Source: Hemerocallis citrina
Taxonomy: Eukaryota; Streptophyta; Magnoliopsida; Asparagales; Asphodelaceae
Length of the DNA: 64,000 bases
Assembly (NCBI GenBank): GCA_017893485.1
Contig: CM030365.1
Span: 33,199,000-33,262,999 of the forward strand
Direction: 5' to 3'
Made by a program: the position numbers and the translations under genes. Position 1 is the first letter of the stretch, and each line of letters begins with the position of its first letter. This document shows, piece by piece, positions 1,521 to 37,871 of the stretch. The notes beneath the pieces were generated by a model. It was not told the origin of the DNA, ran no database searches, and worked only from the letters and a program-made list of their open reading frames with translations.

Positions 1521-3719
1521 TCAAGGGTCCACCTGCGTCTCCGCTCCCACCCCGGACGCATCGACGGGCGGTCCCTCGATCTCTCCCTTAGCCGGGTCAT
1601 CCTCTCCCCCTCCGTCTTCGCCTTCGACCTCGTCCTCGGCATCCCCCTCCTCGTCGTCCGCGGGCGACCCGGGCCACAGTTGATAGCCGACTCGCTCGAA
1701 GCCGGGGACACGAGCCTGGACATGGTCCAGGGCCGTCTGGTAGGATCGCTCCATGTTCTCAGCCATATGTTTCTTCGCCTCTGCCTCAATTTCGGCTTCG
1801 ACCTCCGCCCGGATCCTCGCGGCCTGCGCTTCCCTCTCCGCCTTCTCGTCGGCCAAGGACTTCAATGCCGCGGCAAGATCTTGGGCGGCCTTGGCAGCTT
1901 TGGCGGACTCCGCTTCGAGGCCCTCCTTCGCTTTCTTCAGGTCGGCGGTAAGGTCGGCCACCCGAACGTCCAGAGCCTCAGCCCGCCTCTGCTCGGCCTC
2001 GAGATCCTTGACCGCCCGGACCTTCGCCAGCCTGTCTTTCTCGCTGGCGGACTTCAGCTCCTTCTCCTGTGCGGCGAACGCCTCCATGAGATGGCCGAAG
2101 TGAACGGTGGCCTACAAAGACAACGATAAGTACGAAGTACGCACCGAGTAACAAACTTGAAGAAATTTGCGAACACTTACCGAAACAAGCCCCCGGGCGA
2201 CTTCGTAAGTGTCGTCGCCGACCCTCCCCGCATTCAGCGCGGCCTTATCCTTCGGGGTCGCCAAGTGTTTGACGACCTGCATTGACATCTGCGAGTTGCC
2301 GAGGAAACCATCATGATTCCTCACCAACCAGTTCGGCACAAACAACTGCTTGTGCTGCTCGGTCAGGATTTCCTCGGCATTCTGAGTCAATGGGGGAGGC
2401 TCGAGCGCCAGCGCCGCATTGACATCAAAGACACCCTCGTTCACGGACGGGGCGACATTGGCCGAGGTCTCCTCCACCACCACCACCTCCGAAGGCACCT
2501 CGGTAGCCGGGGGAGGCGGAGCAACGTTAGTGGCGACCGCGGGCTGAACACCCGAAGACGCACCCTCGGCCGCCCTCTTCCTTTTTCTGGTCCCGGTCAG
2601 CTTGGACCTATCGGCCATCATAGCTTTAAAGTCAATCTTCATCGACTCTGCATCAACAAAAAAAAAGGAGGGGGAGAAAACCGAATCAAAACAGACGAAT
2701 TGAAGACTTAGAAAAAAAAATGAATGAGATGTCAAGAGCGTACTCGGGTCGATGGGGCTTAGTCCGGACCCGAACAACACCTCTTCGGTCAACTCCCTCC
2801 AACTCAGTACCGGAAGGGCCGTGATCCTCCTCGCTACCTCCTCCTCGGCCTCAGATAGTGCGGGGTCGCCCCGCGCAAATTTCGGCACTTCCACCTTCCA
2901 CCGGGACGGAATGTGCCAAATCGGTTCGCCCCTTACGATAAAATACTTCTCCCTCCAACCCTTAAGAGAGTCGGGATTCTCTACAATCTTAACACCTCTC
3001 CTCGGCCCCAAATAGTACCGGTACTCCGAGCCGTGTTGCTTGTTTATCCGATAGAGGCCCCGGAAAACTGACAGATCCGGCGCTACCTCGGCTCGGTGAC
3101 ACTGAAGCAAGAATGCGTTCACATGACGCCAAGTGTTTGGACTGAACTGAGTAGCGGCGAGACAATACCAGCCGAGGATCTGAAGTATGAAAGGGTGCAG
3201 CGGAAAACGCAGTCCCGCGTTCAAGGAGTCGACGTCAAACATGCACATGTCCGACGAAGGCAACTTAGTGTTTGCTCGCACCCCGGGGCCAGCGACCATC
3301 AGCTTGTACTCCGACGGGATAGCGAAAGCCTTCCTGATCCGAAGAAGATCCTTCTCGGTCAACGACGAAATGAGCTCGTCAGCTTCGGAGGGATGGAATG
3401 GATTAGGCTCCTCGACGATCTTCGACTTTCCGTAGATCGCTTTCTCCAGAAGATCACCCTCGTACTGCCTGACTCCCGAATGCCCGGACAGGACGGAAGG
3501 ATATTGTCCTATCTCGGGAGCTCGTTTCGGGTTCTCCACAATCACCCCCACCATGGGGGGCGGGGTCTCCCCTGTCCTCTTCTTCTTCCCGACCCTCGAC
3601 TCGACAGCCAGCGGTTCGGCCATCTGCTTCCCCTTCCTGCGAGCTTCCGCCCTAATCCTCTCCCCGGCGCCATCACCGCCCGAGGACGAGGCACTACTAC
3701 CCGAGCTTACCCTTGACAT
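1521..3719 (-). CDS. R1 antisense gene 1: three-exon 'gypsy-type transposase' domain plus coiled-coil protein
   Basis: Proposed exons on the minus strand are 3719-2744, 2647-2181 and 2111-1521, total 2034 nt, giving 677 aa with no internal stop. Exon 1 encodes a Ser/Lys-rich N-terminus and a domain resembling the plant 'putative gypsy type transposon' family (Pfam PF04195), with EYKLMVAGPGVRAN, HPF...LGWYCLA and EYRYYLGPR. Exon 2 has a basic stretch (GTRKRKR), a Pro/Val-rich linker and VVKHLATPKDKAA. Exon 3 (ATVHFGHLME...) is a long coiled coil ending in an acidic tail. Donors are GTACG and GTAAGT; acceptors are GCAG and GTAG. Without splicing the frame ends inside intron 2. R2 has the same exon order, splice positions and phases. 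The function is unknown; despite the family name no transposase activity is established. The start at 3719 is the first ATG of the open frame. Confidence 0.75.
2112..2180 (-). other. Predicted intron 2 of R1 antisense gene 1
   Basis: A 69-nt intron with donor TCG|GTAAGT and acceptor TTTGTAG|GCC, phase 0. Reading through meets a stop within the intron. R2 has the equivalent at 39316-39399 (TCG|GTGAGT ... CTCAG|ATT). It is short but within the plant intron range. Confidence 0.7.
2648..2743 (-). other. Predicted intron 1 of R1 antisense gene 1
   Basis: A 96-nt, T-rich intron with donor A|GTACGC and acceptor TGATGCAG|AG, phase 1. It is a multiple of three without stops, so retention would add 32 residues rather than break the protein. 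R2 has an equivalent 102-nt intron at 38798-38899 with donor A|GTATGG and acceptor TTGCAG|AG in the same phase. Confidence 0.7.
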
Positions 3720-4030
3720 CCTTTGAAAAAGCTAAGGCAAAGACAAACTAACCTTTGAAGTGACGTTCACGGTCGGAGAATGCTCGCCGGAAATCGCCTG
3801 GCCCACGCGACAGCTAACGACAACACCGTGGAGCAAGAGCGCCGCTAGCAGAAGACTTAGAGAACAAAAGTAAATTCGTAGAGTGAAAAGTGAGAAATGA
3901 GCTCAGGGGTGAAGGGATGGTAACTTATAACCTCAACTGATAACGGGCCTCCTTGGGAATCCCAAAGGCCCACTAAGAATCCCAAACGCCCCACAAGAGA
4001 GAGGCGGCGGTATGAGAGGGATGGCGGAAC
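3720..4030 (-). promoter_or_regulatory. Candidate promoter/5' UTR of R1 antisense gene 1
   Basis: There is no credible ORF here. On the minus strand a TATAAG element lies at 3924-3929, about 205 bp before the ATG, followed by a C/T-rich leader. R2 has TATAAG at 37700-37705, about 170 bp before its start, in a similar pyrimidine-rich setting. Conservation suggests an internal antisense promoter; transcription itself is inferred. Confidence 0.45.
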
Positions 4031-6140
4031 TCCCCAAAAAACACAAGTTGCGACCCGGCCACCGGTCTAATGAGCCGAGCTATCGAACGAAACGCTCAGT
4101 GACCGAGCCACCGAGTTCGCCCTAAAATACCCAAATCCGCGCCCGGCAAACAGCGCGAGGTACGCGGACCGAGGTGACGAGATACCGACCCTCGTTTTTG
4201 GCAAAAAATCCTCCCGAATCAAAATCACCGTCGGATCTCTCCAAAATTCGCGTCAGGATCTGATGAACGGTTCAGATTGCGCCACGCCCACAAAACGACA
4301 AGATAGCGTTTTCTCGTGATCTGAACCCCATCCTCGTGATGCGTGCCAAAATGAACGGCCCAGATCCGTCCACGCAGACCTTCCAAACCGCTTGCCATCG
4401 GCTTGGTCGGTCGAGCTACCGAACAGCTCAGCCGAGCAACCGAGCCACTTAATACGGAATGGCGGAACCATCGAGAAGACAAGTAAACGACTCGGTCTCC
4501 GGCCCACCAAGCCGAGCCACCAAGTTCGCCCAAAAATACCCAACTCCGCGCCCGGCAAACAGCGCGAGGTATGCGGACCGAGGTGACGAGATACCGACCC
4601 TCGTTTTTGGCAAAAAATCCTCCCGAATCAAAATCACCGTCGGATCTCTCCAAAATTCGCATCAGGATCTGATGAACGGTTCAGATTGCGCCACGCCCAC
4701 AAAACGACAAGATAGCGTTTTCTCGTGATCTGAACCCCATCCTCGTGATGCGTGCCCAGATAAACGGCCCAGATCTTGCCACGTCGACAAAACGACAAGA
4801 TAGCGTTTTCTGGGGATCCACGCCAGAGATGGGCGGCCTAGACGATGCCACGTACCTCGGATGATCCGAACCGAGGGACCGACCCTTCCAACCGGGTCGC
4901 CGACCCCCCTAGCCGCGGCGCTACGCATCCGGGCCGTGGTGCTGGGGTACCGACCCTTCCAACCGAGTCGCCGACCCCCCTAGCCGCGGTGCTACGCATC
5001 CGGGCCGCGGTGCCGAGGTACCGACCCTCGTTTTTGGGAAAAAATCCTTCCGACCCTCAGGAGCCGTTGGATTTCGTAGGAAAGCGCGCTCGTCATGATG
5101 GACGTCCCAGATCTTGCCACGTCCACAAAACGACAAGATAGCGTTTTATGGGGATCCACGCCAAAGATGGACGGCCTAGATGATGCCACGTACCTCGGAT
5201 GCTTTGAACCGAGGCACCGACCCTTCCAACCGAGTCGCCGACCCCCCCCCAGCCGCGGTGCTACGCATCCGGGCCGCGGTGCCGAGGTACCGACCCTCGT
5301 TTTTGGGAAAAAATCCTTCCGACCCTCAGGAGCCGTTGGATCTCGTAGGAAAGCGCGCTCGTCATGGTGGACGTCCCAGATCTTGCCACGTCCACAAAAC
5401 GACAAGATAGCGTTTTATGGGGATCCACGCCAAAGATGGACGGCCTAGATGATGCCACGTACCTCGGATGCTTTGAACCGAGGCACCGACCCTTCCAACC
5501 AGGTCGCCGACCCCCCAAGCCGCGGCACTACGCATCCGGGCCGTGGTGCTGGGTTACCGACCCTTCCAACCGGGTCGCCGACCCCCCTAGCCGCGGCGCT
5601 ACGCGTCCGGGCCGTGGTGCTGGGGTACCGACCCTTCCAACCGGGTCGCCGACCCCCCTAGCCGCGGCGCTACGCATCCGGGCCGTGGTGCTGGGGTACC
5701 GACCCTTCCAACCGAGTCGCCGACCCCCCTAGCCGCGGTGCTACGCATCCGGGCCGCGGTGCCGAGGTACCGACCCTCGTTTTTGGGAAAAAATCCTTCC
5801 GACCCTCAGGAGCCGTTGGATCTCGTAGGAAAGCGCGCTCGTCATGATGGACGTCCCAGATCTTGCCACGTCCACAAAACGACAAGATAGCGTTCTATTG
5901 GGATCCCCGCTAAAGATGGACGGTCTAGATGGTGCCACGTACCTCGGATGATCCGAACCGAGGTACCGACCATTCGAACCAACTCGCCGACCCCTCGAAC
6001 CGCGGCGCAAAGCATCCGGGCCGGGGTGACGGAGTGCCGACCCTCGTTTTTGGGAAAAAATCCTTCCGAGGAGCAGGAGGCGTCTGATCGTTCCGAAATT
6101 CGCGCTCCATCTTGATCGAAGGCCCAGATGATGCCACGCC
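4031..6140. repeat. Complex tandem repeat block in the R1 3' region
   Basis: Diverged units of ~270-420 bp carry two landmarks: ACCGACCCTCGTTTTTGGGA (near 4184, 4596, 5018, 5286, 5766, 6038) and AAAACGACAAGATAGCG (near 4292, 4703, 4791, 5125, 5395, 5877). Nested within them are ~76-bp GC-rich subunits, about 4870-5000 and 5480-5750, with CCGACCCTTCCAACC and GCCGCGG. Long 3' UTR tandem arrays are typical of Tat elements. ORFs of 70-140 aa in this block are low-complexity by-products. Confidence 0.8.
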
Positions 6141-7596: not shown

Positions 7597-10500
7597 TCAA
7601 GTTCAAGCAACAATAATAATAATAATAATAAAGCAGAAACTCCAGCACTAATACATCATCTCGCCAATACCATCTGGCAGTCATCCATCCTGATCTGCAA
7701 TTAGTAAATTTGCAGGAGAAGGAAAGAGAAAAACAAGTACCCGTCAATTGCAAGTCGCGGGTCACAAATAATGTAGGATACAAGCACATGGGAAAACAAA
7801 CTAGCAACATGGTATACATGTGATGTCAACATAAACATCTAGCATGGTAATGTGATCAAGTGTAACTGGCATGAATCAAGTGTCAAGTAATCAAATAAAT
7901 AGGTAAACATGCAACATGTATCAGGAAACAGGTATACAAGTAAACAGGTAAACAGATAGTCAGGTATACAGGTAACAGGTATAGGTAAATAGATAAACAG
8001 GTAATCAGGTATACAGGTAATCATGTAATCATGTAACAGGATAGTCAGATTTATGTCATATCAAGTTTTGTTATTTTACTATCTAGCATTGGTATAAATA
8101 CCCGAAACCCGAATCCAATCCGGACCTGACCCGGACCCGGCATTGGACCGGAACTGACCCGACCTATCCGGGTCCGAGTCCGGGTCCGCTCAAAAGAAAC
8201 CCGACCCGGACCCGGACCCATTAAAAAAAACCCAAAAAATCAACATAAAATTAAATATTATATCCTCATCCATCCCCTCCTTCCTCCTCAATTCTAAATT
8301 TTTCTCTTCCAAACTCAAAACTCATGTATTTTTCTTCTTTCTTCTAGTCTAAATCATCCACTTGCCGCCTCCGCTCGTCGCTCATACTCCCGCTCCTACC
8401 CGAACGGGTAGGAATATTTTAATAGGACCCAGACCAGAAACCGGATCCGGTCCTCACGGGTCCGGGTCTGGGTCCAATTTTTGGACCCATAGGGGACTGG
8501 GTCCGGGTCTGGGTAGTGAAGGACCCGACCCGACCCGATACCAATGCTACTAGGTAGCACTTCATGCATACCGATTTTTACTACATGGTTGCTACAACGA
8601 ACAGTTGCATTTTAGATTTCATAGTAGAGTCCATAGGACAGTGTACTTAGGTACAGGAAACAAGAATAACAGGAACAGGTAGAATCTAGTGGTTCTTTTC
8701 TGAGTACACCTTCCTAAGGGAAGTATGCAATCAGGTACAGGAAAATAGACATAACCTAGTGGTTATCTTCCGAGTTCATCTTCCTATAAGGAAGCATGCA
8801 ATCAGGTACAGGTAACAGGATCGTGAATCATGTAGTCATGAACACGTAACAGGCAGGCAGGACACAGGTCCTCTTTCAAGTACACGTTTCTATATTTTCT
8901 ACTACTAGATCTTTCCCTTAAATTCCGGCTTGGTCATTTATTATTATAATCAGGTATGCAAGTAGGTGTCGCAAAACAAAGCAAGAATAACAATATATAA
9001 ACATGTATTAGTTTCAGGGTGCAAAATAAACAAGTACAGGGATAAGATATCACATAACAGGGTAAAACAACTAATTTTCTAATTCAGGACAGAAAGACAG
9101 TGTTGTACTAAAACAGTGATCCCCGCTACTAAAAACATCCAAATGTGGATCCGTCAATGGATCTGGAAAATAGCAGCGAGTATAAATAAGTTATATGGTA
9201 ATTCACAATTCATAACTCAAAACAGATTTGAAAATAGAAAACATGTTCAGTCAGAAATCAGGAAAACGAATCCTCTGTCAGGAAAACTGCATCAAAAACT
9301 CTCAAATAAATTCAGAAAAAATCTGGAGTATTCCCCTATATGTCTAGAATCAAAATATAAAGTTTCATAATATTCCAGTAAAATTTTTTTAGTCATCAAA
9401 ATTAAGAAAACATCAAGAAACAACACTTTGGAAAATCTGGAAGTCCCAATACTGCTGTACGAAAACTAAGATATCTCGCAACCAGTGAAACAAAATCCAA
9501 ATCCGCCAAAGGGAGGTGAAAATAGATAAAATATACTAACTTTCATATTTCCCAAACAATTTTCATACAGGATAAGGAATCATAGTGAAAATAGGATTCT
9601 TTATAGAACAGCGAGCAAAATACAGCACGTATAGATTTTATAGACAAGCATGAAACATCACATAAACTTACCAATAAAATTCACCAAAATTTTGAGTAAT
9701 CCCTAACTTAATAAAGAAACACTTACCAAAGTTTCAAATCAAAATAATATGTATAACATGGTTCTTGAAAATAGTTTGTTATCAAAATTACTGAAAAACA
9801 GAATCTGGAAAAGATCGACACCTCTGTACTAAAACAGTCATAACTCAGTCATACAAAATCAAAATAAAGCAAGGTCAGGGGGGTTTGAAAATAAACAAAA
9901 TTATCTAAAATTCATATTTTATACCGAAATCAAGATACTGACTCTAACCCAGTCGAAAACTGCAAATGAAACAAAACAGTGCCAAAAATACAGATTTTTC
10001 CCTTAGAAACAAAATCAACATAGATTCAAGAAAATTGCTCCAAACACATCCAAACTTGAAATAAAGTCTACCAAGTGTCTAAACATCATGATTTAGGGTT
10101 ATTAACATGTCCAAATAAAGTCTACCAAGCTACAAGAAATAATAATAACAAGATCCAGCGTTAATACTTCATATCACCAATACCATCTGGAACCTGTTCT
10201 CCAAAATCTGTAATTTAATAATTGCAGGGAAGAGGAAAAGAGTAAACAAGTACCCTTCAATTACAAGTTACGGGCCGCTTGTAATGCCGGATACAAGTAC
10301 ATGGGGAAAACTAACTAACAAGATGGAATAGGTATGATATCAAGCATAACAACTAGCATGGTAAGGTGAACAAATACAAGTGGCATGTATCAAGTGTCAA
10401 GTGAACAAGTATCATGTAAACGAGTGTCAAGTATCAAGTTTCATATATCAAGTGATCAAGTATCAAGTAAGTATGTATCATGTTCAAGTATCATATTCAC

Positions 10501-12076
10501 GTGTCATGTATCAAGTCTTGTAGCAGTTACTATCTAGGTAGCACTTCATGCAGCCCACCTTACATGGTTGCTACAACAAACAGTTTCGCTTTAGATTTCA
10601 TAGTGGACCATAGTGGGCAGTGTACTCAGGGACAAGTAATCCAAATCATATACCAAATTCCAAATTAACCAAATCATATACCAAATTCCAAATAATCCAA
10701 ATCATATACCAAATTCTAAATAATCTAAATCATATACCGAATTCCAAATTTCAAATTCCAAATTAACCAAATCGTATACCAAATTTCAATTGTGGGAAAC
10801 ACGGGCCCCCTTCCGAGTACACGTTTCTGAATTATCCACTATTTGATCTTTTCCTTAAACCCCGGCTTGGTTATTTATTATTAATGTCAAACAAGCATGT
10901 ATATGTGCAAAATATATCAAGTATAACATGGCATGGTCATGTAATAAGTTCAAGTTGTAAGATAAACATGTACGGGTGCAAGATATCTCATAAAAGAATA
11001 AAATAAACAAATCTCAAATTCAGGACAGCAAGACCACACTGCAGTAAAACAGTGATTTCCAGTGTTACAAATATGCAAATCTGAATCCATCTAAACGTCT
11101 AGAAACTAGACTCCCAACCAAATCCAGCGAGTATAAGTAAGTCATATATTAATTCAGAAAAACATAGTTCAAAACTGATTTGAATGCAGAAAACACGTTG
11201 AACAAGAAATCAGGAAATCGAGTTCAAGAGCAGGAAAACAGCATGAAAACAGATTAAATAATTCCACGAAAAATCTGGGGTATCCCCCTATCTGTCTAGT
11301 ATCAAAATATAAAGTTTCATAATTTTCCAGAAAAGTTAGATCAGTCATTAAAAATCAGAAAACATCAAAGAAATGATAGTTTGGAAAATCTGGAATTCCC
11401 AACACAGCTGTACGAAAACTGTAATATCTCGCAAACCGTGAAACGAAATCCAAATCCGCCACAGGGAGATGAAAATAGACAATATAAACTAACTTTCATG
11501 TTTCACAAATATTTTTCATACAGTCAAAGGAGTCAGGGTGAAAATACGATTCTTTACAGAACAGCAAGCAAAATACAGCAAGTATAGTTTTTATAAACGA
11601 GCATGAAACAACATATAAAACTCACAAACAAAATCCGCCAAAATTCTGGGTAATTCCTAGATAGACATAGAAAAATTGACCAAAGTTCTAGATCAAAATA
11701 ATATGTATAGAACAAGTATCAAAATGGTTTAGTCATCAAAATCACCAAGAAACGAAATCTGGAAAAGATCAACACCTCTGTAGTAAAACAGTCATATCTC
11801 ACACATATGAAAATGAAATTGAGCAAGGTTAGAGGGGTTGGAAAGAAGACAAATTTCTCTACAAATCATGTTTTATACTAAAATTAAGATTCTGACCTTA
11901 ATATGGTCTAAATTACTGATCAAGACAGAATATCGGCAAAACACAGAATTTCCTCAAAAACCAAAATCAACATAGATTCAACGAAACTTGATCCAAACGC
12001 AACCAAAGATGAAATCGAGTCTACCAAGTGTCCAAACATTATGAAATAGGGAAATTAACATGTCCACAACAAGTAT
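7597..12076. repeat. ~2 kb tandem duplication inside the B-rev LTR
   Basis: The segment starting near 7597 repeats from 10130. Parallel landmarks are 9426/11378 (TTGGAAAATCTGGAA), 9470/11420 (ATATCTCGCAA) and 8551/10533 (TAGGTAGCACTTCATGCA). Net of the 460-bp insert the first unit is ~2.06 kb and the second ~1.95 kb. B1 and B2 each have the segment once, so this is a local duplication, probably by unequal exchange. Confidence 0.7.
8087..8546. mobile_element. Non-autonomous hAT-like element (460 bp)
   Basis: Terminal inverted repeats CATTGGTAT / ATACCAATG are perfect. Subterminal arrays of CCCGACCCGG-type motifs run inward from both ends in opposite orientation, as in plant hAT elements. The target CTATCTAG (8079-8086) reappears after the insert as CTACTAG with one base lost, consistent with an 8-bp duplication. 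Uninterrupted sites exist at 10527, 21333 (reverse) and 58912 (reverse) in sister LTR copies. No transposase is encoded. Confidence 0.75.
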
Positions 12077-12462
12077 CTCACATGGATCCCACAAGCACAC
12101 GAGTTCTCATAATTGGTTCACATAAACATCATATCAAGAACGGGCAAAACCTAGGTTGTTTCATGTCAAATTATTATGTCGTGAGGCAACTATGGTCAAA
12201 ACACTATAGAGACAATACTCATCAAACATACATTACAGACATGAGTTGTCTTTAGAACCCAACTACACTACAAGTGGTATTTATGACTTGTATCATACAA
12301 AGGAATTTGAGTACAAGTTACTTGCCTGAAAGACGACGAGAACAACACAAGAGCATGAATAACGGGAACGAATTCCCGGGCACGAACTCAATGATCGAAT
12401 CACGAACCAATCACGAACACAAGGAAAAACAAATCACGAACACGATCAGACGACTGAGATAA

Positions 12463-14241: not shown

Positions 14242-14762
14242 TGTAGGATAATGGCTCGATTCTGGTATTTGGTATCTGCAGTGTTCGAAAGTTTCAGATC
14301 TTCAGTCGACTGGATGGAGGAGCAGTCGACTGTCCAGAGAGGAGTTTTCGAAGACTGAGTATACAGCAGCAGCAGTCGACTATACGTGGGAGTCAGTCGA
14401 CCGTCCCGGAGATTATCAGTCGACTGGTATGAAGACCAGTCGACTGTCGGCGGGTTTTGGATCCAGATTCGGCCCAATTCGAAAGGCCCAATAGTTTCCC
14501 TATAAATACACCCGTTAGGGTTTTGTAAATTGTAACACCTAATTCGGATTTTGTAGCCGTCATCTCTTGTAAAGGCTTTGTTTGCCCATTGGATATCATA
14601 GTAAAGAAACCCCAACCGCCCCTTGTGGATGTAGGCATCGTTTTGCCGAACCACGTAAATCTTGTGTTCTTGTATTGCTTGTTTTTCTGTTTTTCTCTCG
14701 CTGGTTCTCTCTTTCTTTCCGCGTTGGTTTGATTGTTGGTTTGATTTGTATTCCGCACAACA
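14242..14762 (+). repeat. 5' LTR of the copia element
   Basis: 521 bp from TGTAGGATAATGG to CGCACAACA. U3 carries six CAGTCGACTG-type palindromes (14303, 14323, 14373, 14394, 14417, 14437; positions 3 and 4 have one mismatch each). TATAAATA is at 14501-14508. Confidence 0.95.
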
Positions 14763-14765
14763 AGT

Positions 14766-14777
14766 GGTATCAGAGCT
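14766..14777 (+). promoter_or_regulatory. Copia primer-binding site (initiator tRNA-Met)
   Basis: TGGTATCAGAGC, three bases after the 5' LTR, is complementary to the 3' end of plant initiator tRNA-Met. It is the site where minus-strand DNA synthesis would start. Confidence 0.95.
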
Positions 14778-14798
14778 GTTGGTTCGACCTAGAGGGAG

Positions 14799-17700
14799 AT
14801 GGCGGGTGATGCAGATGCAACCAAGGATGTTGTGGGATCAAGTTCGTCAAGAACAACGATTCACAACGCAAAATTTGAAGTTGAAAAATTTGATGGGACA
14901 AACAATTTCGGAATGTGGCAATGTGAGGTGTTGGATGTTCTTGTTCAACAAGAACAAGATGTTGCTTTGGAGAAAGAAAAACCTAAGGATATGTCCGAAG
15001 CAGATTGGAAGAAGTTGAATCGAGTTGCGTGTGGGACTATTCGGCTCTTTATTGAGAAGGCTCAGAAGTACGATTTGATGAGGGATACCATTGCTGCGGT
15101 GTTGTGGAAGAAACTCGAAGACAAATACATGAGGAAAAGTTTGGAGAATCGGCTGGATTTGAAGAAGAGACTTTTTCGCTTCACCTATACGGAAGGTATG
15201 TCTATGAATGCTCATGTTGAATCATTTAATAAATTATTGGCTGATTTGTTAAATTTGGATGAGCAAATTAAGGATGAGGATAAAGCCCTAATTCTGTTGA
15301 ATTCATTACCTGAAAGTTATGATCATTTAGCAACTACTTTATTATATGGAAAAGATACTGTGAAATATGAAGATGTTGCAAATGCTCTGTTGAATAATGA
15401 AACTAGGAGAAGGGATAAAATGGTTGATAGAGAAACTTCTGAAGCATTGATTGTAAGGGGCAGGACTGAGACCAGATCTGAGTCCAAATCTGGGAAAAAG
15501 GAAAACAAATCTCGTTCCAAATCGAGAGGAGTTTCGAAGGACAGGAAAATACCGGCCAAAGATGAATGTGCTTTCTGTCATGAAAGGGGGCATTGGAAAA
15601 AGGATTGTCCAAAGCTACGAAATAAGGGAAATTCGACTGCAAATGTGACTGTTGATAATTTAGAAAGTGGCGAGGATTTTTCTTTTGCACTGGCTTCTAG
15701 TCCCTCACTTTATCAAGAAGTATGGTTTCTTGATACAGCAGCCTCCTATCATATGTCTTGGAAAAAGGAGTGGTTTACTTCTTTGGAGTATATGGATGGT
15801 GGTGTAGTTTTGATGGGAAATGATGCACCTTGTAAGAAGGTAGGAATCGGGAAGATTGAATTGCTAATGCACGATGGTCTTATTAGGGAGCTTTCAGATG
15901 TATGGTATGTTCCAGATTTGAAAAAGAATCTGATTTCACTAGGTGCTTTGGAGGCCAGTGGATTGAAATTTGCTAGTGAAGGTGGCATTCTGAAGGTGAC
16001 TAGCGGATCACTCGTGGTGATGAAAGGGCAAAGAAAAAGGAACTTGTTTTTCTTGCAGGGAAAAACATATTTGGGTCAGGCTGCCAGTGTAACTGAGAAG
16101 CCTAAACAGGTTGTTCCCGACTCTACCAGGTTGTGGCATATGCGACTCGGGCATGCAGGAGAAAAGGCCTTGCAGGGGCTTGTGAAGCAAGGGTTGCTTA
16201 AGGATGCTAAAGGGTGCAAGTTGGAATTTTGTGAACATTGTGTTTTGGGTAAGCAAACTAGGGTGAAATTTGGTACAGCTGTACATCAGACAAAGGGTAT
16301 CCTCGATTATGTGCACACAGATGTTTGGGGCCCTACTCAGACACCTTCTATGAGTGATAGACACTGGTTTGTTACTTTTGTTGATGATTACTCCAGACGA
16401 GTTTGGGTATATACCATGAAGCACAAAGATGAAGTTTTGACATTGCTCACAAGTTGGAAGAAGAAAGTTGAAAATCAGACTGGTAGGAAGATTAAGGTTC
16501 TGAGGTCAGATAATGGAGGGGAATATAAGAATGATCCGTTTCTGAAATTGTGTGAAGATGAAGGGATCCAGAGGCACTTCACAGTTAGGAAGACTCCACA
16601 GCAAAATGGGGTTGCAGAAAGGATGAACAGAACCTTACTTGAGAAGGTGAGATGTATGTTAGCACAGTCTGGATTGAAGAAGACATTTTGGGCAGAAGCT
16701 GTTATATATGCAAGCCACATTGTCAACCGTTTACCATCAGCAGCACTTGAAGGCAAGACGCCTATTGAGGTATGGAGTGGTAAACCTGCATCTGATTATA
16801 GTTTTTTGCATATATTTGGTTGTCCTGCTTATTTTCATGTAACTGAAACTAAACTTGATGCAAGAGCCAAAAAGGCTATATTTGTTGGTTTTAGTACTGG
16901 TGTCAAAGGTTACAGGTTGTGGTGTCCAGAACAAAAGAAGTTAGTAATCAGCAGAGATGTGACTTTTGATGAGACCAGCATGATTAGCTCGGGACAGTCG
17001 ACTGGTGGTATAGGACAGTCGACTGGTGAGTAGCAGAAGAGTGGGACAGTTCTCCAACAGGTAAGTAGCAGAATCTCGGGACAGTCGACTGATGTACAGG
17101 AGCAGTCGACTGGTGGTCTAGAACAGCAGAAGAGTGGGAGCTCGGGACAGTCGACTGTTGGCAATAATCAGTCGACTGGTAGGAGAGTTCTCCAACAGGT
17201 GGAGTTAGAAAAGTTGTCAGTTGAGAATCCTGTTCCTGTCCAAGATGAAGATGATGTGGTTGATACTGAGAATGATGAAGAAGTTCCTATCCAGCAGGAA
17301 GAATCAATTGCAGTAAGAAGGCAAAGAAGAGATATCAAACGACCGTCTCGCTTTACAGATACAGTTGCATTTGCTCTTCCCATTGTGGATGATGAAGTTC
17401 CCTCCAACTTCAAAGAAGCCACTAGAAGTTCAGAAAATGCAGATTGGAAAGTTGCTATGGATGAAGAGATGAACTCTCTTCATAAGAATAAGACTTGGGA
17501 TCTAGTGCAACTACCAAAGGGGAAGAAAGCAATTGGTTGCAAGTGGGTGTATACGAAGAAAGAAGGTCCAAAAGGCAGTGTTCGGTTCAAGGCTAGACTA
17601 GTTGCAAAGGTGTATGCTCAACAGGAAGGTATTGACTATAATGAAGTGTTCTCTCCAGTTGTGAAGCATCCTTCTATTCGGATTTTGTTAGCTTTGGTAG

Positions 17701-18965
17701 CACAGTTTGATCTTGAATTGACACAGATGGATGTGAAGACTGCGTTCTTACATGGGGATCTAGATGAAGAAATTTATATGTCGCAGCCAGATGGGTTCAA
17801 AATTGCTGGGAAGGAAAATTGTGTTTGCAGGTTGAAGAAGTCTCTCTATGGGTTGAAGCAATCTCCAAGGCAGTGGTATTTGAGGTTTGACCAGTTTATG
17901 AAGGTGCAGAGATATTCCAGAAGTGAGTTTGATCATTGTGTCTACTTCAGGAAATTGCAGGATGGTTCTTTCATATATCTGTTATTATATGTGGATGACA
18001 TGTTGATTGCCTCTAAAAATGCTAAGGAGATTCAAAATTTGAAGAATCAGTTGAGTTCTGAATTCGAGATGAAGGATCTTGGTGAAGCCAAGAAGATACT
18101 TGGGATGGAGATAGCTAGAGACAGAGCAAAGGACATAGTGAGTTTGACACAGAAGCAATATCTTTTGAAGGTGCTGAAACGGTTCGGTATAGATGAGAAA
18201 ACTAAACCAGTCAGTACACCCTTAGCCACTCATTTCAGAATTAGTGCTTCTCAGTCTCCAAGTACAGATGAAGAGAGACAGTATATGGCTAATGTACCTT
18301 ACACTAGTGTGGTTGGCAGTTTGATGTATGCCATGGTTTGTACTCGAGCAGACATCTCTCAGGCGGTGAGTATGGTTAGTCGATATATGCATGATCCAGG
18401 CAAAGAGCATTGGCAAGCAGCTAAATGGATTTTGAGGTACATAAGTGGCACCACAGATGTGGGTTTGAAATTTGAAAGGGATGACAATATTAGCAGGTTA
18501 TTGGTTGGGTATGTTGATTCTGACTATGCAGGTGATCTAGATAAGAGGCGGTCTACTACAGGCTATTTGTTTACTATGGCTAGAGCACCTATAAGTTGGA
18601 GGTCAAATTTGCAGTCCACTGTAGCGTTGTCTACTACTGAGGCTGAATACATGGCGGTTGCTGAGGCCATGAAGGAAGCCATTTGGATACATGGACTTTT
18701 GAAGAGCTTGGGAATTCATCGGGAGAAGGTGGAGGTACACTGTGACAGTCAGAGTGCTATTCATTTAGCGAAGAACCAAGTTCATCATTCGAGGACCAAA
18801 CATATTGATGTTCGTTATCACTTTGTGCGTGATTTGATAAAGGATGGTGATATTCATTTGGTGAAGATTGGAACAGCTGATAATCCTGCTGATATGTTGA
18901 CCAAAGTTGTTGGGGCAGCCAAGTTCAAGCATTGCATGAACCTGGCTAATATTTTGCATGTTTGA
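14799..18965 (+). CDS. Copia gag-pol polyprotein with one in-frame amber codon
   Basis: 1387 sense codons in one frame, broken only by TAG at 17031-17033. Gag spans residues ~1-280 and ends in a zinc knuckle ([14 protein letters not shown], ~257). The protease has LDTAAS at ~312. Integrase has its HHCC zinc region (WHMRLGHAG ... CEHC, ~446-485), then the D-D-E residues in DVWGP (~509), SDNGGEY (~570) and NGVAERMNR (~607). A Gln/Ser/Thr/Gly-rich linker (~730-800) holds the amber and six QST motifs. RT follows with [12 protein letters not shown] and YVDD (17988-17999), then RNase H ([19 protein letters not shown]) up to 18965. The ATG at 14799 is the first in frame, 21 bp after the primer site. 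The polyprotein could give a truncated gag-PR-IN product, or the full chain by readthrough. Confidence 0.9.
16995..17178 (+). repeat. Palindrome array CAGTCGACTG in the integrase-RT linker
   Basis: Six perfect copies start at 16995, 17016, 17082, 17103, 17148 and 17169, forming three pairs each spaced exactly 21 bp. All lie in the same reading frame (Gln-Ser-Thr). The same palindrome forms three pairs in the U3 of both LTRs. Confidence 0.9.
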
Positions 18966-19107
18966 TAATTTGGCATGGGCAGTTGGGATAGTACTTTGCT
19001 ATTGGTTTGTTTAGTATGTGATATCATACTAAGGTGGAGTTTGGGTTCGTTTGTTACATTTGGTGATGAGCAGTTGTTTTGGAGTATTTGTGGAGATTGC
19101 TTGGGCT

Positions 19108-19171
19108 ACTTGGAAGATTTCACCAAGGTGGAGATTGTTGGATACTTGGAAGATCTCGCCAAGATGGAGAT
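19108..19171 (+). promoter_or_regulatory. Copia polypurine tract, in duplicated form
   Basis: Two ~35-bp near-copies lie in tandem. The first is TTGGAAGATTTCACC + AAGGTGGAGAT followed by TGTTGGATAC. The second is TTGGAAGATCTCGCC + AAGATGGAGAT followed directly by the 3' LTR start TGTAGGATAA. The second is positioned to prime plus-strand synthesis for the present LTR; the first has the more typical copia form. Confidence 0.7.
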
Positions 19172-19692
19172 TGTAGGATAATGGCTCGATTCTGGTATTT
19201 GGTATTTGCAGTGTTCGAAAGTTTCAGATCTTCAGTCGACTGGATGGAGGAGCAGTCGACTGTCCAGAGAGGAGTTTTCGAAGACTGAGTATATAGCAGC
19301 AGCAGTCGACTGTACGTGGGAGTCAGTCGACCGTCCCGGAGATTATCAGTCGACTGGTATGAAGACCAGTCAACTGTCGGCGGGTTTTGGATCCAGATTC
19401 GGCCCAATTCGAAAGGCCCAATAGTTTCCCTATAAATACACCCGTTAGGGTTTTGTAAATTGTAACACCTAATTCGGATTTTGTAGCCGTCATCTCTTGT
19501 AAAGGCTTTGTTTGCCCATTGGATATCATAGTAAAGAAACCCCAACCGCCCCTTGTGGATGTAGGCATCGTTTTGCCGAACCACGTAAATCTTGTGTTCT
19601 TGTGTTGCTTGTTTTTCTGTTTTTCTCTCGCTAGTTCTCTCTTTGTTTCCGCGTTGGTTTGATTGTTGGTTTGATTTGTATTCCGCACAACA
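19172..19692 (+). repeat. 3' LTR of the copia element
   Basis: 521 bp, about 7 substitutions from the 5' LTR, TATAAATA at 19431-19438. The palindromes start at 19233, 19253, 19303, 19324, 19347 and 19367. The third is perfect here although mutated in the 5' LTR, and the sixth is mutated here although perfect in the 5' LTR. Confidence 0.95.
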
Positions 19693-22115
19693 ATGAATAC
19701 CCATGTGATATAATAGGTGTGGACTTGTTAATAACCCTAAATCTTGATGTTTAGATGCTTGGTAGGTTGTATTTCAAGTTTGGATGTGTTTGGTGCAATA
19801 TTCTTGAAGAAATGTTGTTTTTGTTTGGGAGTGTGAAATCTGTATTTTCTGGATATTCTATGTTGTTTGCTGTTTTCGTCTATGCTACAGCCAGTATCTT
19901 GATTCCATTATAAAATATGAATTTTAGATAATTTTTTCTATTTTTAAACCTCACTAGTTTTGCTTAATTTAGATTTCGTATGACTGAGTTATGGCTGTTT
20001 TGGTACAGATGTATCGATCTATTCCAGATTTAGTTTTTTGTTGATTTTGTTAACAAACTATTTTCAAGAACTTTTTCTATACATATTTTCTCGATCTAAT
20101 ATTTTGGTCAGTGTTTCTTTATGAAGTTAGGGATTTCCCAGAAATTTTATGAATTCTATTGATGAGTTTTATGTGGTATTTCATGATCGTTTCTATAATC
20201 GACTTATGCTGTATTTTGCTCGCTGTGCTGTAAAGAACTCTATTTTCACTATAATTCTCTATATTTTATGAAAATTATTTGTGAAATGTGAAAGTTAGTA
20301 AAATCTATCTATTTTCATATCCCTTTGGCGGAATTGGATTTCGATTCACTGGTTGCGAGATATCTTAGTTTTCGTACAGCAGTGTCGAGATTTCCAGATT
20401 CGTTTAACTCTGTTTTCTTGATGCTTTGGTATTTTTGATGACTGACCTATACTTACTGGAATATTATGAAACTTGTTATTTTAAGTCTAGAATTATAGGG
20501 GAATACTCCAGATTTTTCGTGAATTTATTTAATGTGTTTTCATGCTGTTTTTATGCTCGTAAATTCGTTTTCCTGATTTCTGCCTGAACATCTTTTCTGT
20601 TTTCAAACTTGTTTTGAGTTAAGATGTTGTAAATTACTATATGACTTAATTATACTCGTTGGATTTGTGTGGATGTCTAGTTTCCAGATCATTTGACGGA
20701 TCCATATTTGCATTTCTGTAGAGACCAGAATCATTGTTTTAGTACTGATCTGTCATGCTGTCCTGATTATGAACCTACACCTTTTGGCTCGTTTATGTGA
20801 CCGTATATCATCCATACATGATTATTTGTTACACTGAAACTGATACATGTTTATACCCTGTTATTCTTGCTTTGTTTTGCGACACATACATGCATGCCTG
20901 ATTATAATAATAAATAACCAAGCCGGGGTTTAAGGAAAAGATCTAGTAGTGGATAATTCAGAAACGTGTACTCGGAAGGGTGCCCGTGTTTTCCATTACT
21001 TGTTGCCACGTTTCATGACTACATGATTCATGCTTGATATTAATTGTTGCCATGATTCATGAACACATGATTCATGCTAGATATTACTTGTTGCCACGTG
21101 ATCATGACTACATGACTCGTGCTTGATAATACTTGTTACCACGTGATCATGACTACATAACTCGTGCTTGATACTTGCTGCCACTTGTTCACGATTACGT
21201 GACTCGTGCTTGATACTGGTTACTTAACTTGTTCCTGAGTATACTGCCATCTATGGTCTACTATGAAATCTAAAGCGAAACTGCATTGACTGTAACAACC
21301 ATGTGATAAAAGGATGGCACATGAAGTGTTACCTAGATAGTAATTCACTATAAGACTTGATACATGCTACTTGAACATGATACGTGAACATGATACATGC
21401 TTGCTTGATACTGGACTACCTGATACCTGAGACTTGATACCTGAGACTTGATACATGATTACATGATATTTGATATTTGGTACATGTTACATGATTACCT
21501 GTTACCTGATTATCCGATTAAGCTGATTACCTGATACTCGATACATGTTTACCTGTTTACCTGTTGATCTGTTTACCTGACACTTGACACATGTTACCTG
21601 TACCTGTTAGTATGCCATGTTGCTAGTTAGTTTTCTTATGTACTTGTATCCTACATTATTTATGACCCGCAACTTGCAATTGACGGGTACTTATGTTTTC
21701 TCTTTTCCTCTTTCCTGCATTCGTTGTATTGCAAATTTTGGAGGACAGGTTCCAGACGGTATTGGTGACATGATGTACTAGATGCTGGAATTTTGCTATT
21801 ATTATTCTTGTTGCTTATTTTGAACAATAATTGTATTTTGAGACTTGGATTTATTCTTGTATTTGGGTAATGTGACCCAGGATTATTTGCGTATTTCAGA
21901 TCATGACTATTTGAGATTAATATATTTTATTTCAAGTATTCTTATTGGTATTTGGTTCATATGTGCATGTGGTTGACTTTTCTGGCTTCCGACTCTGATT
22001 ATATTGTGATATGTTGTAAAGAATTCTTGAACAGCTTATGGAGGATGAAAATCATTCGCTCGGCTTTTGTCTCATACCCGTATTTCGTATTCTTTTTGGG
22101 AAGCGGGGCATGACA

Positions 22116-25510: not shown

Positions 25511-28500
25511 TGTAATATCCCCGGTCGGATATTATAATTGTATTATTATTATTTTTAAAATTAAATTTTTTTTATAGAAACTTCTTGGTTTTACTAAATA
25601 AAAACTTACCTGTGAATATATCCTAGTAAGTATATATATGTGTTGTATCGATTTTGTGCACTTGTACAAATCCTGTAAAATGCGTTTTGAGAAAATGTCT
25701 GTAAAAATCTCAGGCCGATATTAAAAATTATTATTTTTATTATTATTTTATTTTTTATTTTCAGAGTTGAAATTTTTTTGGTGGATATCACCCGGTTTTG
25801 TTAATAAACATTATCTGTATATATATACTAGTCTGTATACATCTGTATTGTATCAAATTGGTAGTGTAATCTTCTGAGCCGATAATAAAATTTATTTTAT
25901 TAGTATTATCGGAATTAATTTATTTTTATACGGATTGTGCAGTTTAACAAACAAAAATTATCGGTATATATACGAATATATACGTATGCGTATTGTATCG
26001 ATTTCATACGTTTGTAAAAATCGTGTAGTAGGTGTTTTGGACAAAAATATCTTATTTTTGTCATGATTAATCAAAATTGGATGGCTATGATTTGTTTGGA
26101 GGGTTAAACCTAGGGTTTATGATTAAATGAGATACATAAGAGATTAAATAGGTGGATTTCTACTAGAACACTCTCCACCTCACCCATCTACCTCACCCCC
26201 TCCGCCTCATCATCTTTGGCCGGCCAACCTTGACCCAAGGGATTTTTTGCAAAACCCCTTGGTGCATTTGCACTCTCCCCCTTCTCATTCCTTCTATACC
26301 CCCCCCCCCCCCCCCCCCCTCACCTCTTGCCTCATTTGCCAAAAGAAAAAATAGAGAGGAAAAGAAAGAGAGGAAGAAACCCTAAAGAGTTCTTCATTTG
26401 TGGGTTTTTCATAGGAGATTTTCTATAGGAGCTTGGAGGAAGGAGAATGTTACTTGTCTAGTTCTTCCTACAAAGAAATCAATGGTGGGGGTTCTCTACT
26501 TCTCTTTTATTATTGTTGTAAGTGTAGAAAGAACCCATCTTTAGGGTTAATTATTGTTGCTTGTAAAAAGAATCCATCTTATGATGTTTTGTTGTTGTAG
26601 GTTAAAAAAACTCATCTTTATGATGTGTGGTTGTTGTATGTGTATGTTTCTAAATAACTTGGACTAAATCTTATGCATAAACATGGTTGTATGGATCAAA
26701 ATGATCCTATAAAAATATGGATGGTAGAACTCAAATAAATGACATAAAGATTGAGTCTTTAAGACTTTGTTATGGTTATTTTTGCTAAACTAACAACTTG
26801 GACTAATTGGTTTAGGCATATAAGTAGTGTGAGTCAAGATTGATCACATAAAAAGGTTTAAGGGTGGAACTTACTAAAAGCACATAAAGATAGAATCTTT
26901 AGCCTGGTTGTGATCATTGTTGTTATTATTGTCATTTTGCAAACACGAACTATGACAACTTGGACTAAATCTATGAGCATATAAAGATTAGTGTAGTAAA
27001 AATACTTACATGCTCATTTTGGGGTTGTAGAACTCAACAGGCTAATAAAAGACAAGTCTTTGTTGTATGTTGTTTTCCTACCACGTTAAAGATCAAGTCT
27101 TTACTAACAACTAGTTCATAAAAAGTGGGCCTTATTATATGTAGGAACTTGTAGGTTGAAGAAAAAAAGGTTTTGTAATATATAGGGTTTGTAGATTCAA
27201 TAAAAGTAATTTTTTGTATTTTGTAGAACTTGTAGATTAAATAAAAGTAGGTTTTGTAATATGTAGGAACTTGTAGATTCAATAAAGTTAGATTTTTGTA
27301 ATATGTAGGACTTGTAATTCCTAAAAGAAGTAGTGAGGAACCCATCATGCTTGAGTTTTTGTAGTTGTTCTAGTAAAGAATCCATGCTTGTTTTGTAGTT
27401 GTTCTAGTAAAGAACCCATCATGCTTGAGTTGTAGTTGTTCTAGTAAAGAACTCATCATGCTTGACTTGTATTTGTTCTAGTAAAGAACCCAACATGCTT
27501 GACTTGTAGTTGTTCTAGTAAGAAACCCATGCTTGAGATGTTGGTTGTTGTAGTAAAGAACCCATGCTTGAGTTATATGTGCTAAAGAACCCATGCTTAA
27601 GTTGTTGTAGTTGTTCTAGTAAAGAACACATGCTTGAGTTGTAGGTTGTTGTAGTAAAGAACCCATGCTTGAGTTGTATGTGCTAAAGAACTCATGCTTA
27701 AATTGTATGTGCTAAAGAACCCATGCTTGAGTTGTATGTGCTAAAAGAACCCATGCTTGAGTTGTAGTAAAGAACCCATGCTTGAGTTGTTGTAGTAGTT
27801 CTAGTAAAGAACCCATGCTTGAGCTGTTGTAGTTGTTCTAGTAAAGAACCCATGCTTGAGCTGTTGTAGTAGTTCTAGTAGAGAACCCATGCTTGAGTTG
27901 TTGTATTAGTTCTAATAAAGAACCCATACTTGAGATGTGTAGTTGTTATAGATTTAAAAGAACCCATGCTTGAGTTTGTATGGTTGTTTTAGATTCAAAA
28001 GAACCCATGCTTGAGTTTGTATAGTTGTTCTAGATTCAAAAGTACCCATGCATGCTTGAATTGTTTGTTGCAATGGTTTTTAAAAAGGAACCCAGGAATT
28101 TAGCTCGCATGCTAATCTAGTTAAACTATTGAAATGAACCCATGTTACACATTTGTTCTAGTTCGGCTTTTAAGAAGAAACCCATGAAACTAGTTCCATG
28201 ATTGTTTTAGCTCAAATTGATGAAGAACCCATGCATTTAGTTTCTAGGTAATTCTAGCTCAATCTTGAGAAAAAACCCATGAACCTAGTTGCATGTTGTT
28301 CTATTTCAAATTTGGGAAGAGAACCCGCGAATTCTAGTTGTATGGGGTTCTAATTAAAATTGGACCATATCATGTGAACGTCCTTCATCTTCAATGTATG
28401 GTGATAATGGTTGGGAAAGTCACTAGTATTGTTAGCTCGATAAAAGCTCGTCTAGGGTCTTATAGTTACCCTAGGGGTCATTGACCATCGAGACTCGTAT

Positions 28501-36589: not shown

Positions 36590-37600
36590 AGGTCGGTGGC
36601 AACCGACCTCGGGGCGCTTCGCCGAAGTCCACGGGAGCGACACATGGTATGTGGGCTCCGACTTCTTCCCGTTTTGGACGTCGGTGGCAGACGACTTCGG
36701 AAAGCTTGCCGAAGTCTAGGGGATCGACACGTGGCATGTGGGCCCCTGTCCCTTCGTGCTTCAGATGTCGGTGGCAAGCGACCTCAGGGACGAAAAGGAG
36801 GGCGACACATGGCCAGTGGGTCCCAGTCAACGCAATTGCTAGCATTTGGACGTCGGTGGCAAACGAACTCGGAGACGAATGGGAGAGCGTCACGTCGCCA
36901 GTGGGTCCCAGCCACCGCTGACCAGTCAACGCAATTGCTTGCATTTGGACGTCGGTGGCAAACGACCTCGGGGACCAATAGGAGAGCACCATGTGGCCAA
37001 TGGGTCCCAGTCACCGTTGACCCGTCAATGCAATTGCTTGCGTTTGGACATCGGTGGCAAACGACCTCGGGGGCCAATGGGAGAGCGCCACGTGGCCAGT
37101 GGGTCCCAGCCACAGTTGACCTATCAACACAATTGTTTGCGTTTGGAGGTCGGTGGCAAACGACCTCGGGGACGAATGGGAGAGCGTCGCGTGGCCAGTG
37201 GGTCCCAGCCACCGTTGACCAGTCAACGCAATAGTTTGCGTTTGGACGTCGGTGGCAAGTGACTTCGGGGATGAATGGGAAAGCGCCACATGGCCAGTGG
37301 GTCCCAGCCATCGTCGACCAGTCAACGCAATAGTTTGCATTTGGACGTCGGTAGCAGACGACTTCGGGGACCAATGGGAAAGTGCCATGTGGACAGTGGG
37401 TCCCAATCACCGTTGACCAGTCAACACAATTGTTTGCATTTAGACGTCGGTGGTAGACCACTTCAGGGACCAATGGGAAAGCGCCACATGGCCAGTGGGT
37501 CTCAATCACCGTTGACCAGTCAACGCAATTGTTTGCGTGTGGATGTCGGTGGCAAGCAACTTCGGGGACGAATGGGAGAGCGCCACGTGGCCGTCTCTTG
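36590..37600. repeat. Tandem array, ~99-bp period, in R2
   Basis: About 11 units each contain GTCGGTGGCAAACGACCTCG, GGCCAGTGGGTCCCAGCC and TTGACCAGTCAACGCAAT. Because the period is 99, long frames stay open on both strands. The minus frame 37686-36784 encodes about eight 33-aa repeats with C-X8-C (CHRRPNANNC). Confidence 0.9.
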
Positions 37601-37699
37601 AGCTGCCCAGATACTTTTGTCGTTTCTGCTAAATGGGCTAAGCCTTTGCACTGTTGGGGGCCTTTTACCCTTGGGAAGTGCGCCAACTACCCTAATCCC

Positions 37700-37705
37700 T
37701 ATAAG
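37700..37705 (+). promoter_or_regulatory. Candidate TATA box of R2 antisense gene 1
   Basis: TATAAG in CCCTATAAGTCTCC, followed by a pyrimidine-rich leader. The R1 equivalent is at 3924-3929. Confidence 0.45.
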
Positions 37706-37871
37706 TCTCCACCCCCACTCTCATTTGCTCTTTATTCTCGTTTTTTACTCAGGCGAGATTTTCCACTAGCGAGAGCTTCCGGCGAGTTTTTACGGTGCTC
37801 TGGTGTGTTTTCCGACCGTTGCTGTCAACTGAAGGTAATTCTATACTTAGCTTATTTCCTTCCTTTAGAGA

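Follow-up and report, generated by a model that had tools for sequence, protein, structure and literature searches.

A palindromic decamer paired at a two-turn step in Ty1/copia and Ty3/gypsy retrotransposons of one plant genome: a putative shared operator

The ten-letter palindrome CAGTCGACTG is arranged in pairs both in the long terminal repeats (LTRs) and in the protein-coding interior of a 5.45 kb Ty1/copia element (14242-19692) on a 64,000-nucleotide stretch of the Hemerocallis citrina genome (C8:33199000-33262999; this whole stretch is hereafter the window, and positions are numbered within it). Across the source genome (3,775,421,867 bases, or 3.78 Gb, in 701 contigs), which is the single genome covered by all counts below, Ty1/copia and Ty3/gypsy elements have in common an operator-like pair with a two-turn step, even within open reading frames (ORFs). 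We favor, with fair though not high confidence, the reading that this pair is an operator for one DNA-binding factor, serving as an enhancer or anti-silencing site of several families and partly exchanged among them, with the protein nature of the agent, the sharing and the effect all putative. This reading rests on the abundance of the decamer, its pairing, the step between paired sites, its occurrence in different families and in all three reading frames, and the fact that the core, unlike the spacer and flank, is conserved.

The window element carries 18 sites, of which 14 are perfect, and the four others (14373, 14394, 19324 and 19367) have one mismatch each. The original prediction had placed six sites in each U3 (unique 3') region and six in the linker between integrase and reverse transcriptase (RT), and we confirmed every position and spacing, the count of perfect copies, and the reading of all six linker sites as Gln-Ser-Thr (QST) in the gag-pol frame (Table 1). 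Among the 5' U3 and linker sites (12 in all), the first eight letters agree in 12/12 and the last two in 11/12, compared to at most 7/12 in the flanking columns, and since the similarity ends this sharply at the edges of the decamer, the repeat unit is the decamer only. Six sites were observed in the internal region against 0.001 expected (2000 Markov sequences), and four perfect sites in the 5' LTR against 0 in 4000. Given the sites, the pairing is also beyond chance, as few random placements have all three steps at 20-21 bp (12/66,417 for U3 and 2/91,812 for the linker). The U3 array lies 55-200 bp 5' of TATAAATA, its 3' end being 55 bp from this word in the 5' LTR, such that the repeated motif sits upstream of the TATA box, as expected for an enhancer array. 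The linker is 125 positions long, compared to a median of 86 (range 34-100) for the 60 of 120 listed protein relatives from which a linker could be excised. Two other repeat pairs within the window contain no decamer site, protein searches with the antisense reading of U3 and with the linker alone gave no matches, and scans of viral and GTDB sequences found no relative.

Genome-wide, exact CAGTCGACTG occurs 337,030 times, compared to 756 times for a control decamer (the reversed word, itself palindromic, without CpG); as exact letters only were counted, variants are missed. Exact pairs number 1,015 at step 19, 41,259 at step 20, 24,525 at step 21 and 2,750 at step 22, against 25,600 for steps 23-50 together (~914 per step), while the control word forms 0 pairs at each of steps 19, 20, 21 and 22 and 1 at steps 23-50. 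Among the initial 100 decamers in the C1 listing, which like the genome counts were unselected for pairing, 19 steps lie below 40 bp, namely 20 (12), 21 (6) and 29 (1). Furthermore, of 52 distinct cores that lack an exact partner, 45 have a degenerate one 19-22 bp away, compared to 1, 2, 2 and 3 at the four offsets used as controls (near-identical contexts were collapsed, and the pair type used for choosing loci was left out). The unit looks like the pair, more than the single site. As separate observations, runs of the decamer at 20, 19 and 20 bp with the telomere-like spacer TTAGGGTTAG occur at G000:C1:3775716-3775784 and 3776226-3776294, and a scan of genome contigs returned 35 places with two decamers, all prokaryotic by title, among them four Sporosarcina genomes (L001, L012, L016 and L026) with two CAGTCGACTG 20-23 bp apart, which are perhaps an unrelated bacterial operator. 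In the literature, the open-licence matches listed for the decamer in full text include none tied to a plant transposon by title, and the matches listed for AGTCGACT together with "retrotransposon" include one fluke retrotransposon title and none on this paired palindrome by title.

The carriers were identified at twenty 10-kb loci and ten small ones, with L040-L059 selected for an exact step-20 pair, such that their pair counts are biased. One Ty3/gypsy carrier (L050) has Retrotrans_gag, RVT_1, RT_RNaseH, Integrase_H2C2 and rve, parts of which set recur in L044, L051, L055 and L058, and a second Ty3/gypsy group comprises L047 and L048 (RVP_2 and RVT_1, with SH3_Tf2-1 also in L048) as well as L059, with Ty3_capsid. 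The copia family is represented by L053, by its domains, and L054, by LTR similarity. Masking of the cores leaves three groups among ten LTR-like blocks, with 0/18 matched block pairs (BLAST) crossing between them; the block intervals come from BLAST repeats within the 10-kb pieces and do not always coincide with exact LTR ends. A total of 139 motif pairs reduces to 15 contexts without detected mutual homology, some of them within one element. Nine site-bearing blocks are repeated within their own locus at 98-99.9% identity, from which we take it that their bearers moved recently. Thus, the palindrome is indeed present in the element for which it had been described, but it is not a feature of that element alone, as several families share it genome-wide.

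Comparison between loci shows how differently the core and its surroundings change. In 352 alignments (leaving out those <300 bp, those with >96% identity, those within the same locus and those without a core), the core AGTCGACT, scored where at least one partner has it, differs at 458/13,251 positions (3.5%), compared to 16,152/76,195 (21.2%) for the near flank within 60 bp, with values by identity class running from 0.9% vs 10.8% (90-96% identity) to 4.4% vs 28.6% (60-70%). Sites and surroundings instead diverge equally when repeat blocks within one locus, most of them LTR pairs, are compared (8/560, or 1.4%, and 264/16,797, or 1.6%, in 12 rows with sites, a sum that includes the 90.7% identical blocks of L056, which may be no LTR pair). 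As these differences arose mostly after insertion, this comparison reflects post-insertion decay, and the core is therefore no mutational cold spot and is kept only in the replicating lineage. Taken together, these data support a DNA-level constraint that appears to act on the decamer core.

In 208 comparisons with both pairs intact and 80-96% identity, spacers differ by 25.9%, flanks 2-12 bp away by 26.0% and flanks 32-62 bp away by 19.5%, and a special hypervariability of the spacers, at which a small comparison had hinted, was rejected because they differ like the flanks up to 12 bp away. The step differs in 108/208 of these comparisons, yet stays within 19-22 bp in 207/208. The outer letters of the pair differ in 7.2% and the inner letters in 21.6%, and canonical letters are found at 104/130 outer against 83/130 inner positions (p=0.006). 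Of the distinct single changes within arrays, 34/66 are C>A at position 1 or its mirror and 3/66 are C5>T, the change expected from a methylated CpG, which argues against CpG decay as the source of the core variants (for variant and letter-association counts, near-identical contexts were collapsed). The claim that the spacing is not random in other copies is thereby borne out, and so is that of a binding-type array with a two-turn step, where binding itself is putative: the step is sharply favored genome-wide and kept while the spacers change, and the core is conserved as DNA. That a host silencing or restriction factor would instead target the sites, with the elements yet to escape it, strikes us as very improbable. 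Each decamer does hold symmetric CHG, CG and CHG methylation contexts, as read from the sequence, but loss of the sites would then profit the elements, yet the nine recently moved block pairs bear them and the core is kept between loci.

The sites are also found in coding DNA. In L050, they lie near the start of gag and in the gag-protease, protease-RT and RNase H-integrase gaps. Among 24 pairs located in long ORFs (at least 494 codons), a set that includes homologous copies, 17 read Gln/Lys-Ser-Thr twice, five read QST followed by Ser-Arg-Leu, one reads Val-Asp-Trp followed by QST, and one reads Val-Asp-Cys twice, with steps of both 20 and 21 bp present; all three reading frames are therefore used, that of QST being the commonest. 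The 17 pairs are what could speak for the Gln-Ser-Thr repeats as a selected peptide, an explanation to which we give next to no weight, since it is already contradicted by the same DNA in the noncoding U3, by the seven pairs in which Val-Asp or Ser-Arg-Leu is read from a site, sometimes with two readings in a single pair, and by the finding of QST in the linker of 0/111 scorable proteins among the 120 relatives listed of 7,062. The common feature is the DNA, not the peptide. A purely in-frame origin of the 21-bp step was likewise rejected, as noncoding U3 regions use both 20 and 21 and step 20 occurs within ORFs too. We also observed four decamer variants at successive 21-bp steps in an ORF, giving Lys-Ser-Thr heptads, at L042 3134-3206 and at L055 2897-2969 (the ORF of L055 has a gag domain).

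As each site is its own complement, an RNA hairpin is conceivable, in which the pair folds as a 10-bp stem with a 10-11-nt loop, or pairs two genomic RNAs, in the service of packaging, dimerization or protection. Both arrays fold better than shuffled sequences (z -3.50 and -3.56), and the outer letters L1 and R10 are weakly associated (odds ratio (OR) 5, p=0.025). However, such z-scores follow from repeated palindromes as such, and a stem requires arms that are complementary to each other, not arms that are individually palindromic. The inner letters L10 and R1 are unassociated (OR 1.18, p=0.79), with pairing in 50/85, the strongest association, between L10 and R10 (OR 11.7, p=0.0003), is not predicted by a stem, and no Rfam family matched. 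The letter associations are thus mixed, and we regard a role at the RNA level as improbable.

Within the copia family of the window element, we read seven linkers and nine U3 regions (two from the window and seven others), all of which have arrays. The linkers of L070-L074 were found via an exact step-21 pair, so that linkers without arrays would be missed, and the U3 regions of L080 and L081 via the pair itself. The copies unselected for the array are the linker of L053, a locus chosen by its U3, and the U3 regions of L075-L079, fetched by their distance from linkers; here, the array is present in 1/1 linker and 5/5 U3 regions. The check for the array in relatives at both places, which had been proposed for this DNA, could in this way be run in part, with the arrays found throughout but with unselected copies limited to these six, and with one pair at a 12-bp step in each of the five unselected U3 regions. 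Three linker pairs are present in the window element, L070, L071 and L072 and two in L053, L073 and L074, with step 21 throughout, and the linker cores differ from those of the window at 0/34, 0/48, 0/48, 0/32, 0/32 and 1/48 positions, compared to 1 to 31 of 200-272 other sites. Some of these linkers are open in this stretch, and others contain a stop codon. The seven other U3 regions differ from those of the window at 18/312 core and 263/1,553 other positions. One sibling (C1:4148300-4153630; L071, L075 and L076) has 1/272 noncore differences in its linker and 32 and 33 of 215 (~15%) in its U3 regions, which points either to separate histories of its LTR and body or to a much faster evolution of U3. 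The suggestion that U3 material had been copied into pol was not supported: apart from the decamer, the similarity between U3 and linker is at chance level, the longest common word being 7 (reached by 267/500 shuffles) and the spacers together giving p=0.10 (best single pair of nine p=0.026, uncorrected). Bulk copying was accordingly rejected, as there is no extra shared sequence and the sibling whose linker nearly matches differs in its U3.

Between families, 0/96 distinct spacers are identical in two of the 15 contexts, and 3/1,478 comparisons between nonhomologous contexts agree within one mismatch, against ~0.1 expected by a hand estimate. Two of these three link the copia LTRs of L053 and L054 to a spacer in L059. 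In particular, one pair and its spacer recur in L054 (copia LTR, 4733-4808) and L059 (Ty3-group LTR block, 4402-4509), the L054 spacer being longer by one base, and the match continues for another 12 bp with one mismatch. Of 300 shuffles, 1 attains its masked local score of 24, whereas 26 attain the masked score of 18 for L053 and L059. This sharing makes it probable that one or more array pieces moved between a copia LTR and an LTR of the Ty3 group. The same two loci have a second pair with a similar spacer, and exchange of a module between superfamilies is possible. Spacer inversion by recombination between palindromes was rejected, as the inverted score exceeded the direct one in 1/15 comparisons and was never positive.

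These observations bear on neutral spread, in which the pair would be a module copied by template switching, recombination or gene conversion at palindromes, to no benefit of the elements. Very high copy number across different families, the module common to the copia and Ty3-group LTRs, the near-identical spacers, the differing histories of the sibling's U3 and linker, the varying number of linker pairs, and 3 of 25 homologues listed that are without exactly one site and spacer are all in line with this. However, recent copying of a module should bring the spacer along, whereas identical spacers never occur in two contexts and spacer divergence matches that of the flanks; in addition, core variants are limited to few positions, and the step is retained despite gains and losses of bases in the spacers. 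We thus consider neutral spread unlikely, although it is an alternative of some weight.

In the operator reading, CAGTCGACT-n11..14-AGTCGACTG, with sites 19-22 and mostly 20-21 bp apart, would form a two-site operator in double-stranded DNA, on which one sequence-specific protein would occupy two neighboring sites on the same face of the helix. The palindromic core suggests a symmetric protein, and the conserved outer and freer inner letters suggest joint use of both sites. Ty1/copia and Ty3/gypsy families would carry the pair in LTRs and inter-domain linkers because the bound protein would raise expression or block silencing, and pieces of the array would have moved between families at least once. 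In the window element, the three pairs just 5' of the TATA box suggest activation, and the three in the integrase-RT linker, read as Gln-Ser-Thr, suggest further enhancers or protection from silencing, comparable to the motif density for VANC in VANDAL (see below). The data suggest that several families may depend on the same putative DNA-binding factor. A CBF/DREB-type or similar host factor is a candidate as a lead only, because the GTCGAC core in every perfect site of the window element, which fits RYCGAC, is a listed CBF core (the excerpted source lists GTCGAC as "Core CRT/DRE motif", CRTDREHVCBF2, and RYCGAC as CBFHV; PMC9138379). The broader proposal of a genome-wide selfish regulon, in which superfamilies would have converged on or exchanged one paired operator that answers to one host or element factor, in coding DNA as well as in promoters, we hold more tentatively, at a little under even chances. 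If one factor does bind, its reach would extend to much of the mobile DNA in a genome of 3.8 Gb, and a shared regulator aiding genome expansion, as well as the acquisition of the same switch by unrelated elements, would become directly testable.

Several observations weigh against the operator reading. The between-locus alignments are not independent, as they draw on overlapping families, repeats may bias the alignment, and the conservation could partly stem from exchange between copies. In the identical-flank class, core identity is 0.924 (n=9), cores being less well kept than flanks, which fits free decay after insertion in a small set, and of the 7 differences between the LTRs of the window element, 2 lie within sites. 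The 12-bp pair is present in 5/9 U3 regions of the copia family (from three elements), and 17/24 long-ORF pairs, with homologous copies among them, are wholly in the QST/KST (Lys-Ser-Thr) frame. Finally, the near-shared spacers and the one module shared by L054 and L059 led us to weigh the operator reading slightly lower, and neutral spread higher.

Turning to the host element (Table 1), its TG...CA LTRs, its 5-bp target-site duplication (ATGAA on either side) and the primer-site word TGGTATCAGAGC 3' of the 5' LTR, which we take to be of the initiator-Met type, are those of a Tnt1-like Ty1/copia element, as is the order of gag, integrase, RT (RVT_2) and RNase H in one frame, the RVT_3 match being subthreshold. 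The two ORFs share this frame, with one TAG between them, in the linker at 17031-17033, which closes the upstream ORF. The LTRs differ by 7 substitutions (divergence 0.0136), which presumably corresponds to an age of roughly 0.5-1 million years. The words at 14471..14508, just 3' of the U3 array, are probably the core promoter. Insertion of the element is supported by two other places in the window (12330-11014 and 57065-58388) that align across its joined flanks; diverged copies of one repeat, some inverted, lie at 8824-12085, 19701-21030 and 56998-58593, and the element is inserted into one of them. A 36-bp repeat (2.5 copies, 19090-19180) contains the polypurine-tract-like AAGGTGGAGATTG, and the 3' LTR begins within its last copy. 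Between linker pairs 1 and 2, CAG|GTAAGT (17058-17066) occurs once on the + strand of the element, and is presumably a perfect-looking 5' splice-site word. Elsewhere in the window are tandem arrays of ~99 bp (7.8 copies, 36823-37592) and 37 bp (20.1 copies, 27331-28033), and ORFs at 2115-3731 and 37457-38665 with Transposase_28 ("putative gypsy type transposon"), a domain also found in the decamer-bearing locus L040.

Table 1. Features of the Ty1/copia element and its decamer pairs, in window positions
Feature	Position	Strand	Basis	Details
Ty1/copia element, 5.45 kb	14242..19692	+	some matches named TNT 1-94	
5' LTR, 521 bp	14242..14762	+	LTR comparison	TG...CA
5' U3 pair 1	14303..14332	+	sequence	sites 14303/14323, step 20, both perfect
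5' U3 pair 2	14373..14403	+	sequence	sites 14373/14394, step 21, CAGTCGACTA and CAGTCGACCG
5' U3 pair 3	14417..14446	+	sequence	sites 14417/14437, step 20, both perfect
Two GGCCCAAT words and TATAAATA	14471..14508	+	word positions	14471, 14485; 14501-14508
ORF: gag, Pol_BBD, integrase, SH3 domain, linker pair 1	14799..17033	+	ORF list and domain profiles	
Linker pair 1	16995..17025	+	sequence	sites 16995/17016, step 21, in frame as QST....QST
Linker pair 2	17082..17112	+	sequence	sites 17082/17103, step 21
Linker pair 3	17148..17178	+	sequence	sites 17148/17169, step 21
ORF: RT (RVT_2) and RNase H region (RVT_3)	17199..18965	+	domain profiles	RVT_3 below its cut-off
3' LTR, 521 bp	19172..19692	+	LTR comparison	same three U3 pairs as 5' LTR
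3' U3 pairs	19233-19262, 19303-19333, 19347-19376	+	sequence	sites 19233/19253, 19303/19324, 19347/19367

The cis elements of transposons are usually regarded as private to one family. The Ty1/copia element Tnt1 of tobacco has repeated boxes in its U3, and the cis elements of Tto1 and Tnt1 are, as far as we are aware, family-private and confined to the LTR, unlike the present pair, although in both cases short cis elements lie in a Ty1/copia LTR promoter. For Tto1, also a tobacco Ty1/copia element, a 13-bp cis element is described (excerpt of PMC10794571), and NtMYB2 is named in connection with it (excerpt of PMC6762207). The tomato element Rider has a CBF site in its U3, with no activation by cold according to the same excerpt (PMC6762207), and is thus similar in carrying a CBF/DRE-type motif in a copia U3, but here the motif forms dense paired arrays that are common to several families. 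In the parts of the sources available, foamy virus Tas (PMC8670036) and HIV-1 intragenic elements (PMC8746790) exemplify regulation from both the LTR and the interior of a provirus, as would the candidate regulatory sites in LTR and element body here, whose activity is predicted from sequence; those systems, however, use a viral transactivator or mixed host sites rather than one paired palindrome across families. The closest likeness is to VANDAL and VANC of Arabidopsis, where a 9-bp motif, YAGTATTAY, forms dense arrays within transposons, with tandem-repeat spread, and is bound by a sequence-specific anti-silencing protein (excerpts of PMC5735166 and PMC10398659). There, motif and protein belong to one family, and the motif is mainly noncoding and in one orientation, as far as these excerpts describe it (PMC5735166, PMC10398659), whereas the palindrome pair described here is common to LTR retrotransposons of two superfamilies and is found in ORFs as well.

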